Shown in pieces: positions 2,392 to 58,605 of a stretch of 61,857 nucleotides of DNA (within the stretch, counting starts at the first letter, position 1; every line of letters begins with the position of its first letter). Both the position numbers and the translations under genes were made by a program. The DNA comes from Thermoprotei archaeon. GTDB lineage: Archaea; Thermoproteota; Methanomethylicia; Nezhaarchaeales; B40-G2. A model generated the notes under the pieces. The model was not told where the DNA came from, searched no databases, and saw only the letters and a list, made by a program, of their open reading frames with translations. The DNA lies in contig QMSI01000002.1 of assembly GCA_003649615.1 (NCBI GenBank), positions 1 to 61,857 of the forward strand, in the 5' to 3' direction.

Positions 2392-2541
2392 TCCCCGGGG
2401 AGGGAGTTGAACCCTCGACCATTCCCGGCCTTCACAGCTCTCGGTTACCGCTCGGCTGAGCAGGGGTCACCGCGCGCATTTACGCCCTCACCCGCCGGCC
2501 AACACCTACAGCCGAGCGCTCTACCTCTGAGCTACCCGGGG
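2392..2541 (-). tRNA. tRNA-Tyr (anticodon GTA) with apparently two introns
   Basis: Minus-strand acceptor halves CCCCGGG and CCCGGGG pair with A as discriminator. The C1:G72 pair is the archaeal tRNA-Tyr identity element. The D arm is GCTC-AGAGGTA-GAGC and the T arm is GAGGG-TTCAACT-CCCTC. The 5' anticodon arm CTCGG-CTGTA places GTA at 2507-2509. The gene is 150 nt, twice the usual length. The best model removes about 60 nt (roughly 2446-2505) after position 37, where exon CUGU can pair with GCGG near the intron 3' end, and about 18 nt from the variable loop, leaving a 72-nt tRNA. The exact junctions are uncertain because CCGAG occurs twice (2440-2444 and 2451-2455). Confidence 0.82.
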
Positions 2542-6937: not shown

Positions 6938-8134
6938 GTGACGGGGGGCGAGGATGTGGACGGAGAACTCTTCGTAGCGACCAGTGAAGAGATTAAACGA
7001 GGATCAACTACTGACATCTACTACCTTAGGACGAGGGAGATCTTAGCGAAAAAAGGAATAGCAGAGACGAAGGTGGCCATGGATATCCACGCTTACTCCT
7101 TTCCTCAAGGTTATGAGTGGGCAGTATTTGCTGGCGTTGAGGAGGCAGTTAAGCTTCTCGAAGGATTAAAAGTCGATGTTTACGCCATGGATGAAGGCTC
7201 CATCTTCAACTTATACGAACCCGTACTCAGGGTCGAAGGACCTTACAGCGAGTTTGGGATCTACGAGACCCCCATTCTTGGACTGCTTCGACATAGTTCG
7301 AGCATCGCTACTAGAGCAGCTAGGTGTAAAAAAGCAGCCGGAGATAGAATGGTAATCTCCTTTGGAGTGAGGGCTATACATCCAGCCATAGCCCCCATGG
7401 CCGATAGGGCAGCCTTCATCGGAGGGTGCGACGCTGTCTCAGGAGTAGCGGGAGCAAAGCTAATAGGTGAAGAGCCTGTAGGTACTATACCTCATGAGCT
7501 GATTATAATCATTGGTAACCAGGTAGAGGCATGGAAAGCCTTCGATGAAGTAATGCCACCTAACGTTCTACGCATAGCGTTATGCGACACTTGGTTTGAT
7601 GAAAGGGTAGAGGCTTTAATGGCTGCCCAAGCTCTTGGTGAAAAGCTCTACGGAGTTCGTTTCGACACCCCAAAGTCGAGGAGAGGAGATATTAGGAGAA
7701 TCGTTGAGGAAGCCCGATGGACTTTAAACCTGCACGGTTATCGCCATGTAAAGATAGTGTTAAGCGCAGGGCTCGACGAATACGCGATAGCTAGGCTTAG
7801 AGACGTGGTAGATGTGTTTGGTGTAGGTACATCTATCATGTTTCCACCTTCCATAGATCTAGCTTTCGACATAGTTGAGGTCGAAGGCAAACCCATCTCG
7901 AAGAGAGGGAAAATGCCAGGACGGAAACAGGTCTACCGATGCTTTGACTGCATGGAGAGAGCCGTGAAGCCCTTAGAGGAGCCTCCACCCACTTGTCCAC
8001 GCTGCGGCAAGGTCATGGAAGGCATGCTAAAGCCGCTGTTGAAGCAAGGAAAGCTTGTCAGAGAACTACCTAAACCTAAAGAGATAAGGAATTATGTGTT
8101 ACGACAGCTCGAGAAGCTGCCAGACTTCGCTTAG
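6938..8134 (+). CDS. pncB: Nicotinate phosphoribosyltransferase, archaeal type with C-terminal zinc ribbon
   Basis: The enzyme joins nicotinate and PRPP to give nicotinate mononucleotide in NAD salvage. The 398-residue protein has the family fold with conserved segments FGVRAIHPAIAP (about residues 148-159) and the phosphate-binding region VDVFGVGTSI near the end of the barrel. The C-terminus carries a four-Cys zinc ribbon (CFDC...CPRC, about residues 345-369), as in archaeal members. A TATA-like TTTTATA at 6911-6917 lies about 26 bases before the GTG at 6938, which fits a leaderless start; an internal GTG at 6956 with a G-rich ribosome site is the alternative. The splicing endonuclease subunit and HisRS genes follow closely on the same strand. 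Confidence 0.88.
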   Translation: MTGGEDVDGELFVATSEEIKRGSTTDIYYLRTREILAKKGIAETKVAMDIHAYSFPQGYEWAVFAGVEEAVKLLEGLKVDVYAMDEGSIFNLYEPVLRVEGPYSEFGIYETPILGLLRHSSSIATRAARCKKAAGDRMVISFGVRAIHPAIAPMADRAAFIGGCDAVSGVAGAKLIGEEPVGTIPHELIIIIGNQVEAWKAFDEVMPPNVLRIALCDTWFDERVEALMAAQALGEKLYGVRFDTPKSRRGDIRRIVEEARWTLNLHGYRHVKIVLSAGLDEYAIARLRDVVDVFGVGTSIMFPPSIDLAFDIVEVEGKPISKRGKMPGRKQVYRCFDCMERAVKPLEEPPPTCPRCGKVMEGMLKPLLKQGKLVRELPKPKEIRNYVLRQLEKLPDFA

Positions 8135-8177: not shown

Positions 8178-8723
8178 ATGAGCAGAGAGGAGCAGGAACG
8201 AAAACCGCTAAAGGTCCTTTTCAAGGAGGACGACTTCACAGTGGAGGACGAGGAGGAAGCTCGGGAACTTTACTCTACAGGTTATTACGGTGAATACGTA
8301 TCTGGGAAGCTTAAGCTATCCCCAGCCGAAGTCCTCCATTTACTTGAAAGGGGCAGGATAAGGGTTTATGATGATAGTGGAAAGGAGCTCGAGTTCGATG
8401 AAGTGGCAAAGAGGTTGATGAAGAAGGATCCTCAAACCTGGCTTAAATACCTTGTATACTCGGACCTGAGAAGGAGGGGGTATGTGGTCAAGGAGGGGTT
8501 TAGTGACCGCGTAGAATTTAGGGTGTACAGGCGAGGAGCTGAAGTAGGCTCGGAGGGAGCTAAGTACCTGGTTTACGGCGTGATTGAAGGTGAGCCTCTA
8601 GATCTAAACAACATCTACAATATGACAAAGACTGCCAGAGCGCTACGTAAAGAGCCCGTGCTGGCCATTGTTAATAGACAAGGCGAAGTATGTTACTATG
8701 AAGTAGCGCTGGTATCGCTATGA
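8178..8723 (+). CDS. endA: tRNA-splicing endonuclease subunit, lacking the catalytic His (probably structural)
   Basis: The 181-residue protein matches the EndA fold, including the C-terminal catalytic-domain core YLVYSDLRRRGYVVKEGF and FRVYRRG. Archaeal EndA uses a Tyr-His-Lys triad. The Tyr (in FRVYRRG) and the Lys (in RKEPVLAIV) are present, but where active enzymes read E-H-S before YLV this protein reads SEGAKYLV, so the His is replaced by Gly. Non-catalytic subunits pair with a catalytic one in the two-subunit enzymes of many TACK archaea; that role here is inference, and no second subunit is in the window. ATG 8178 gives the normal family N-terminus. The hisS start follows 11 bases after the stop. 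Confidence 0.85.
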   Translation: MSREEQERKPLKVLFKEDDFTVEDEEEARELYSTGYYGEYVSGKLKLSPAEVLHLLERGRIRVYDDSGKELEFDEVAKRLMKKDPQTWLKYLVYSDLRRRGYVVKEGFSDRVEFRVYRRGAEVGSEGAKYLVYGVIEGEPLDLNNIYNMTKTARALRKEPVLAIVNRQGEVCYYEVALVSL

Positions 8724-24093: not shown

Positions 24094-24179
24094 GGGCCCG
24101 TAGCTTAGCACGGTAGAGGAAAGCCGAAAGCGCTCGGCTCTTAACCGAGTGGTCGCGGGTTCAAATCCCGCCGGGCCCG
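24094..24179 (+). tRNA. tRNA-Lys (anticodon CTT) with a 12-nt insertion in the D arm
   Basis: The acceptor GGGCCCG pairs with CGGGCCC and the discriminator is G. The anticodon arm CTCGG-CTCTTAA-CCGAG places CTT at 24140-24142, and the T arm is GCGGG-TTCAAAT-CCCGC. After GTAGAG a 12-base segment GAAAGCCGAAAG (about 24119-24130) interrupts the 3' strand of the D stem; removing it restores GCTT paired with GAGC and a 74-nt tRNA. The insertion is best read as a tiny non-canonical intron. AGCCGA within it can pair with TCGGCT of the anticodon arm, giving a bulge-helix-loop type fold. Confidence 0.88.
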
Positions 24180-24252
24180 CTACCTCACCGCCTTGATAGA
24201 GGCGAAGAAATTAAGCTTGCCTCAGCGTAACGCTGCATAGTAGCTTAAGCTA

Positions 24253-38597: not shown

Positions 38598-38686
38598 TGG
38601 ACCGGGCGGGACTCGAACCCGCGACCTCCCGCACTTCAGGCCCTAAGGCTTGCCAAGCGGGCATTCTACCGCTGAACTACCGGCCG
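38598..38686 (-). tRNA. tRNA-Ala (anticodon GGC) with a 17-nt canonical intron
   Basis: Minus strand: the anticodon stem CCCGC pairs with GCGGG and the loop TTGGCA..T gives GGC (38652-38654). The intron 38634-38650 after position 37 forms a textbook bulge-helix-bulge: UUGG pairs with CUGA, the three-base bulges are CAA and AGU, and the inner stem is GCC/GGC with loop UUAG. The G3:U70 pair of tRNA-Ala is present. Position 1 is C, opposite C72, so the terminal acceptor pair is mismatched, which is odd. The discriminator is A and CCA is not encoded. Confidence 0.93.
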
Positions 38687-41817: not shown

Positions 41818-41929
41818 GCCGGGGTGGCTGAGCGGTCTAAAGCGCCGGCCTCGAGATCTTATGAGGAAAGAGGCCAGGAAAGCCGGTGCCCCTTTACGGG
41901 GCGCGTGGGTTCAAATCCCACCCCCGGCG
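41818..41929 (+). tRNA. tRNA-Ser (anticodon CGA) with a 25-nt intron
   Basis: The acceptor GCCGGGG pairs with CCCCGGC and the discriminator is G. The anticodon arm CCGGC-CTCGAG..A-GCCGG places CGA at 41852-41854. The long variable arm GCCCC-TTTA-CGGGGC marks a class II tRNA, and the T arm is GTGGG-TTCAAAT-CCCAC. A 25-base intron at 41856-41880 interrupts the loop after position 37. Its bulge-helix-bulge fold is imperfect: three of four central pairs form, and GGCCTC can pair instead with GAGGCC inside the intron. Confidence 0.93.
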
Positions 41930-42225: not shown

Positions 42226-42339
42226 TGCGGGGGGTGGGATTTGAACCCACGAAGGCCTATGCCACAGGATACCCCATACCGGCCTCTTTTAGCCGAGATC
42301 TTAAGTCCTGCCCCTTTGTCCTGGCTCGGGAACCCCCGC
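42226..42339 (-). tRNA. tRNA-Leu (anticodon TAA) with a 29-nt intron
   Basis: The minus-strand acceptor GCGGGGG pairs with CCCCCGC and the discriminator is A. The anticodon arm CAGGA-CTTAAG..A-TCCTG gives TAA (42301-42303). The class II variable arm and the T arm GTGGG-TTCAAAT-CCCAC are present. The intron 42271-42299 follows position 37. Exon CUUA pairs with intron UGGG, the bulges are AGA and GUA, and the inner stem UCUCGGC pairs with GCCGGUA with one mismatch, which is a good bulge-helix-bulge. Confidence 0.94.
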
Positions 42340-58503: not shown

Positions 58504-58605
58504 CGGGCCCGGCGGGATTTGAACCCGCGACCACTCCCCAGGAGGGCTAATGGCCCCCCTTCCGGGTTAAAAGCCCGTTGCTCTACCATGCTGAGCTACG
58601 GGCCC
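58504..58605 (-). tRNA. tRNA-Lys (anticodon TTT) with a ~28-nt non-canonical intron
   Basis: The minus-strand acceptor GGGCCCG pairs with CGGGCCC and the discriminator is G. The anticodon arm ACGGG-CTTTTAA-CCCGG places TTT at 58569-58571, and the T arm is GCGGG-TTCAAAT-CCCGC. Between the anticodon stem and the variable loop TGGTC lies an insertion of about 28 bases (about 58534-58561). It forms an 8-bp hairpin, AGGGGGGC with GCCCTCCT around loop CATTA. Exon CCCG can pair with intron TGGG, with three-base bulges GAA and GAG, so this is a bulge-helix-bulge intron near position 43/44; the exact cut sites are uncertain by one or two bases. Confidence 0.9.

Follow-up and report, generated by a model that had tools for sequence, protein, structure and literature searches.

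The 61,857-nt stretch of archaeal DNA that was analysed as a whole (the window) carries an EndA-type gene whose product has lost the His of the Tyr-His-Lys triad used in tRNA splicing, raising the question of what such a protein does and which protein cuts in its place. The product of this gene scored 71.5 bits against Pfam PF01974 (cutoff 27) and 56 bits against PF02778 (cutoff 21), with both the N-terminal and the catalytic EndA domains present. Its AlphaFold2 model (mean pLDDT 91.9) gave Methanocaldococcus jannaschii EndA as the top Foldseek match (1a79, TM 0.86/0.90, E 7e-16), and the leading matches were EndA/TSEN splicing endonucleases only, confirming the EndA fold. Since a longer in-frame start at 8094 would overlap the upstream gene and the lengths of relatives back the ATG at 8178, the latter was favoured as the start; about 30 nt before this ATG lies a TTTAAAT box, which fits a leaderless archaeal transcript. 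The gene is flanked by a nicotinate phosphoribosyltransferase-family (NAPRT) gene and by a histidyl-tRNA synthetase (HisRS) gene whose GTG start lies 12 nt downstream of its stop, so the EndA-type gene and the HisRS gene are likely co-transcribed. Of the 34 loci examined in relatives, 31 had HisRS at most about 3 kb from the EndA-type gene, and 8 had NAPRT nearby as well, these being exactly the same-order relatives. Coordinates of all features are collected in Table 1.

Table 1. Features of the splicing endonuclease subunits and tRNA genes (window positions unless a contig is named)
Feature	Position	Strand	Basis or conservation
endA-β, structural (non-catalytic) subunit of tRNA-splicing endonuclease, 181 aa (assignment very probable)	8178..8723	+	PF01974 + PF02778, AlphaFold2/Foldseek, tree
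Tyr117 codon TAC, triad Tyr kept	8526..8528	+	Y 67/73, F 6/73 non-crenarchaeal β subunits
Gly127 codon GGA at catalytic His position	8556..8558	+	H in 55/55 catalytic rows
Lys158 codon AAA, triad Lys kept	8649..8651	+	K in 73/73 non-crenarchaeal β subunits
Glu170 codon, acidic, L10-loop position	8685..8687	+	E/D in 73/73 non-crenarchaeal β subunits
Catalytic α EndA, 183 aa	G000 contig 15, 15882-16433	+	complete Tyr-His-Lys triad
tRNA, probably Tyr(GUA) (C1:G72); anticodon-loop intron about 60 nt + variable-region insertion about 17-20 nt	2392..2541	-	Rfam alignment; likely substrate
tRNA-Lys(CUU), about 12-nt D-loop insertion, non-canonical	24094..24180	+	Rfam alignment; likely substrate
tRNA-Ala(GGC), anticodon-loop intron	38598..38686	-	Rfam alignment, ARAGORN; likely substrate
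tRNA-Ser(CGA), anticodon-loop intron	41818..41929	+	Rfam alignment, ARAGORN; likely substrate
tRNA-Leu(UAA), anticodon-loop intron	42226..42339	-	likely substrate
tRNA-Lys(UUU), about 29-nt variable-region insertion, non-canonical	58504..58605	-	Rfam alignment; likely substrate

The original prediction had read the Tyr and Lys of the triad as present and the His as replaced by Gly, and the alignment agreed on each residue. Tyr117 and Lys158 stand at the triad positions, and Gly127, ten residues past Tyr117, falls in the His column when aligned with 35 true catalytic relatives, where M. jannaschii EndA and every catalytic relative have their His. The same column holds Ala in Aeropyrum pernix chain 3ajv_B, which PMC6379350 gives as the H133A mutant. 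A catalytic His displaced elsewhere in the loop was rejected because the whole C-terminal catalytic domain was found to contain no His; the sole His of the protein belongs to the N-terminal domain, at about residue 53. The window protein thus has the incomplete triad of a structural subunit, with Gly at the His site and with Tyr and Lys kept. It also has the acidic L10-loop residue, Glu170, at a position that serves α–β assembly in the EndA family (PMC6379350), and for which a docking role may be presumed from the family; in catalytic α subunits position 170 is mostly Lys, Arg or another residue and is not conserved as acidic. A draft metagenome assembly leaves room for Gly127 being a sequencing or assembly error, or for the gene being in decay, but we give these explanations next to no credence: the frame is open, the protein is 63% identical to the β subunit of the sister genome, where Gly occupies this site too, His is missing from the β subunits of every class relative, the order NAPRT-β-HisRS is kept within the order, and independent genomes contradict both.

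A second EndA with a full triad, which the prediction expected in the genome and outside the window, was sought by profile search of the window's genome. Exactly two significant EndA genes were returned, the window gene and one on another contig, contig 15, whose product carries the complete triad (FAVYKYGPGIDHAPFLV...SHSVRKRF). A third match on contig 10 (E 0.26) was rejected as noise; a third copy could be missing, given the draft state of the assembly (94% complete, contamination estimate 6.3%). The best solved match of the contig 15 protein was 3p1z_B (183.7 bits), which is the catalytic subunit in the A. pernix heterotetramer. This putative α subunit has a Crenarchaea-specific loop (CSL) insertion of the Aeropyrum type, FVGVNKPK, in which Lys39 aligns with residue 44 of 3p1z_B (numbering taken from the alignment), the CSL Lys44 of the A. 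pernix α subunit. Lys occupies this column in 53 of the 53 α subunits that have it. According to its title, a 2011 study by Okuda et al. (a reference in PMC12397907) found the A. pernix CSL lysine to be important for activity.

The same pairing recurred widely. Forty relatives were searched, and in the quality subset (n = 22, ≥90% complete, ≤5% contaminated) all 22 genomes gave two EndA matches above the family cut-off, one strong (α) and one weaker (β). Two EndA genes were also the rule across 121 phylum genomes, being present in most of them; in the few with one at a stricter threshold, the β subunit is absent or too divergent for the profile to pick up. The class, like most of the phylum, normally has an α/β pair, which is not peculiar to the window's genome. 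One phylum genome (G071, a bin with 7% contamination) had three EndA genes, on contigs 60, 76 and 95 (L142, L193 and L194), of which L194 has the triad without the CSL and resembles a single-subunit EndA of the euryarchaeal type.

In the alignment that placed Gly127 in the His column, all 35 α subunits read Y-H-K and the 51 β subunits Y-x-K, and in a tree of 84 sequences one branch parted α from β (support 100/99), which argues for one old duplication that predated the divergence of these classes. The window protein sat in the β group with known structural subunits, apart from the catalytic ones, as expected if the His-less copy is the structural subunit. The tree was midpoint-rooted and the crenarchaeal β subunits form long branches, so their exact placement is unsure. 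Both genes of the window's genome paired with their counterparts from a same-family sister genome (G001; support 100/93 and 100/94), making contamination an unlikely source of either copy; the α gene was therefore rejected as a contaminant despite the contamination estimate. The data directly show the two genes, the triad residues of each, the lysine of the CSL and the α/β family split.

Could the window protein nevertheless cut, either as an endonuclease with another general acid or as an active homotetramer? Tyr and Lys are in place, and His, absent from all other β rows, is found at the site in one thaumarchaeal β subunit, but we consider this very unlikely, given that the catalytic domain has no His, that β subunits tolerate many different residues at the His site, that they do not conserve the Arg which all 55 catalytic rows have seven residues ahead of the catalytic Lys, and that a full-triad α subunit is always present in near-complete relatives. 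The thaumarchaeal exception (L045:4950-5543, VBPX01000050.1, Thaumarchaeota TA_21) is a β-type EndA with a full Tyr-His-Lys set; it was sorted among the α subunits by the script on its His and is not one of the 35 true α subunits. Its His codon is CAT against CGT in a close relative, an Arg-to-His change that may be due to chance. We conclude with high confidence that the window gene encodes the structural β subunit of an (αβ)2 heterotetrameric tRNA-splicing endonuclease, with its catalytic α subunit encoded on contig 15.

Enzymes of the (αβ)2 type have been described for Crenarchaeota, Thaumarchaeota and Nanoarchaeum, and the assembly, division of labour and broad specificity proposed here are modelled on solved relatives. 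Two α–β dimers would assemble via the acidic L10 loop of β and paired C-terminal strands. The α subunit alone would bear the Tyr-His-Lys site and cut, with one cut per α at the two bulges of a bulge-helix-bulge motif or a relaxed variant of it, and its CSL with the invariant Lys would let the enzyme accept non-canonical sites. The A. pernix enzyme (PDB 3P1Z, 3AJV) likewise consists of a separate Y-H-K α subunit with CSL Lys44 and a separate His-less two-domain β subunit, and has the broad specificity predicted for the window's enzyme; its β subunit, however, has also lost the Lys (His stands there) and has the L10 motif TGL, whereas the window β has Tyr, Lys and an acidic QGE. The Pyrobaculum aerophilum enzyme (PDB 2ZYZ) shares the division of labour and the CSL, but its β subunit lacks the N-terminal domain present in ours. 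The β subunits of thaumarchaeal/Nitrososphaeria α2β2 enzymes resemble the window β in keeping Tyr and Lys, losing His and ending in RGE-V-x-YY, and differ from it in a Tyr-to-His-site loop one residue shorter and in sequence (about 31-37% identity). The Methanopyrus kandleri heterotetramer (PDB 5X89) also has catalytic and structural chains, but in its structural half Tyr (now Phe), His and Lys are all lost. The closest fold, the α4 EndA of M. jannaschii (PDB 1A79, 32% identity to the window β), differs in having one gene, Y-H-K in all subunits and narrow specificity. An α4 homotetramer was rejected for the window's genome, which has two genes, one of them without His, and so was the ε2 (ARMAN) type, in which three units are fused in one protein of about 390 aa, the proteins here being 181 and 183 aa and encoded on separate contigs.

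The prediction had also pointed to several tRNA introns at unusual positions in the window as fitting substrates. In Rfam alignments, insertions outside the canonical 37/38 position were predicted in at least ten tRNA genes of the genome, as is expected for a broad-specificity enzyme, and three of these are in the window (Lys(UUU), Lys(CUU) and the tRNA at 2392-2541), so that gene and substrates do fit together. Elsewhere in the genome, non-canonical insertions were found in Ile, Gln, Arg, Glu, Lys, Asn and Gly tRNA genes, lying in the D loop and anticodon loop (Arg), the D loop (Glu) or the variable region (Lys, Asn and Gly). In tRNA-Ile(GAU) (L122, G000:C6:479-581) the insertion seems to interrupt the anticodon stem near 30/31, and in tRNA-Gln(CUG) (L124, G000:C79:4656-4748) near 32/33, both read by eye from the alignments; the places are given as insertion regions and not as exact splice sites. 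An automatic bulge-helix-bulge search with splice-and-rescan yielded no reliable exact splice sites. The structure of the substrate genes itself is directly observed, and abundant non-canonical tRNA introns have been tied to α2β2 enzymes before (PMC4090602, PMC3218864).

Two further observations concern individual tRNA genes. ARAGORN labelled the tRNA at 2392-2541 as Asn(GUU), while Tyr(GUA) follows from C1:G72 and from reading the gene with a canonical 37/38 intron. Two tRNA-Lys(UUU) genes carry different variable-region insertions (L106 at 58504-58605 and L135 at G000:C135:2467-2571), one of which may be a contaminant in the draft genome.

In archaea, splicing endonuclease has rRNA precursors among its substrates too (PMC7714728), and the complex could in principle serve mainly rRNA or other RNA processing at bulge-helix-bulge motifs, with tRNA introns secondary. 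This is very improbable, as about sixteen predicted intron-bearing tRNA genes in the genome need the enzyme; the two roles are, besides, not mutually exclusive.

The structural assignment stands, but the window β retains Tyr and Lys, which most structural subunits of Crenarchaeota have lost, and so may not be purely structural. Among 73 non-crenarchaeal β subunits of several classes, Lys158 was conserved in all and Tyr117 was Tyr or Phe in all, in contrast to the His column, which was variable (P, G, T, A, R, S, E and others; entropy 2.55 bits, rank 111 of 172), and a β alignment of 36 rows had both residues in its set of 16 invariant columns. In the crenarchaeal β subunits (n = 19), Tyr and Lys were mostly gone: A. 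pernix, whose genome is in the sample and whose β subunit matches the solved structural chain 3p1z_A over its whole length, keeps the Tyr and has His in place of Lys, and others have K/L, W/T or I/L. It is conceivable, though we hold it to be rather unlikely, that in the non-crenarchaeal β subunits of the phylum Tyr and Lys form a selected anion- or RNA-binding half-site that contacts the pre-tRNA backbone or intron (for example, a bulge phosphate) and aids specificity without cutting, His having been lost first and Tyr and Lys shed later in Crenarchaeota. Against this, the two residues are lost in crenarchaeal β subunits of working heterotetramers and in the M. kandleri structural half, and hence are not required in general. 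Phe in place of Tyr in six rows, confined to one group of β subunits, suggests packing and fits it better than chemistry. The invariance of Lys could reflect either the fold or an RNA contact, which conservation by itself fails to separate. Judged from these sequences, the simplest order is probably duplication, then His loss in the β stem, then loss of Tyr and Lys in Crenarchaeota.

The window's enzyme is of a known type, and the retained Tyr/Lys half-triad is a modest, less familiar addition. In the literature searched, we found no description of the splicing endonuclease of Bathyarchaeota, Verstraetearchaeota, Methanomethylicia or Asgard archaea. A further archaeal class joins the holders of heterotetrameric, broad-specificity enzymes, and in this class non-canonical tRNA introns accompany the splicing enzyme. 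The class may be a thermoproteotal one of Methanomethylicia (Verstraetearchaeota) type; the named relatives that sequence comparison gave belong to Thaumarchaeota/Nitrososphaeria and are merely distant. Most relatives have methyl-coenzyme M reductase: mcrA was found in 27 of 41 near-set genomes and is absent from the window's genome (G000), and one order is split on this gene, with G000, G001 and G002 on one side and G003-G005 and G007 on the other. The loss of His in essentially every β subunit, and of Tyr and Lys only in Crenarchaeota, suggests an order of pseudoenzyme decay and makes the β subunits of this class suitable for studying the role of the non-cutting subunit, which, should the half-site reading prove true, would be a specificity subunit rather than a scaffold.
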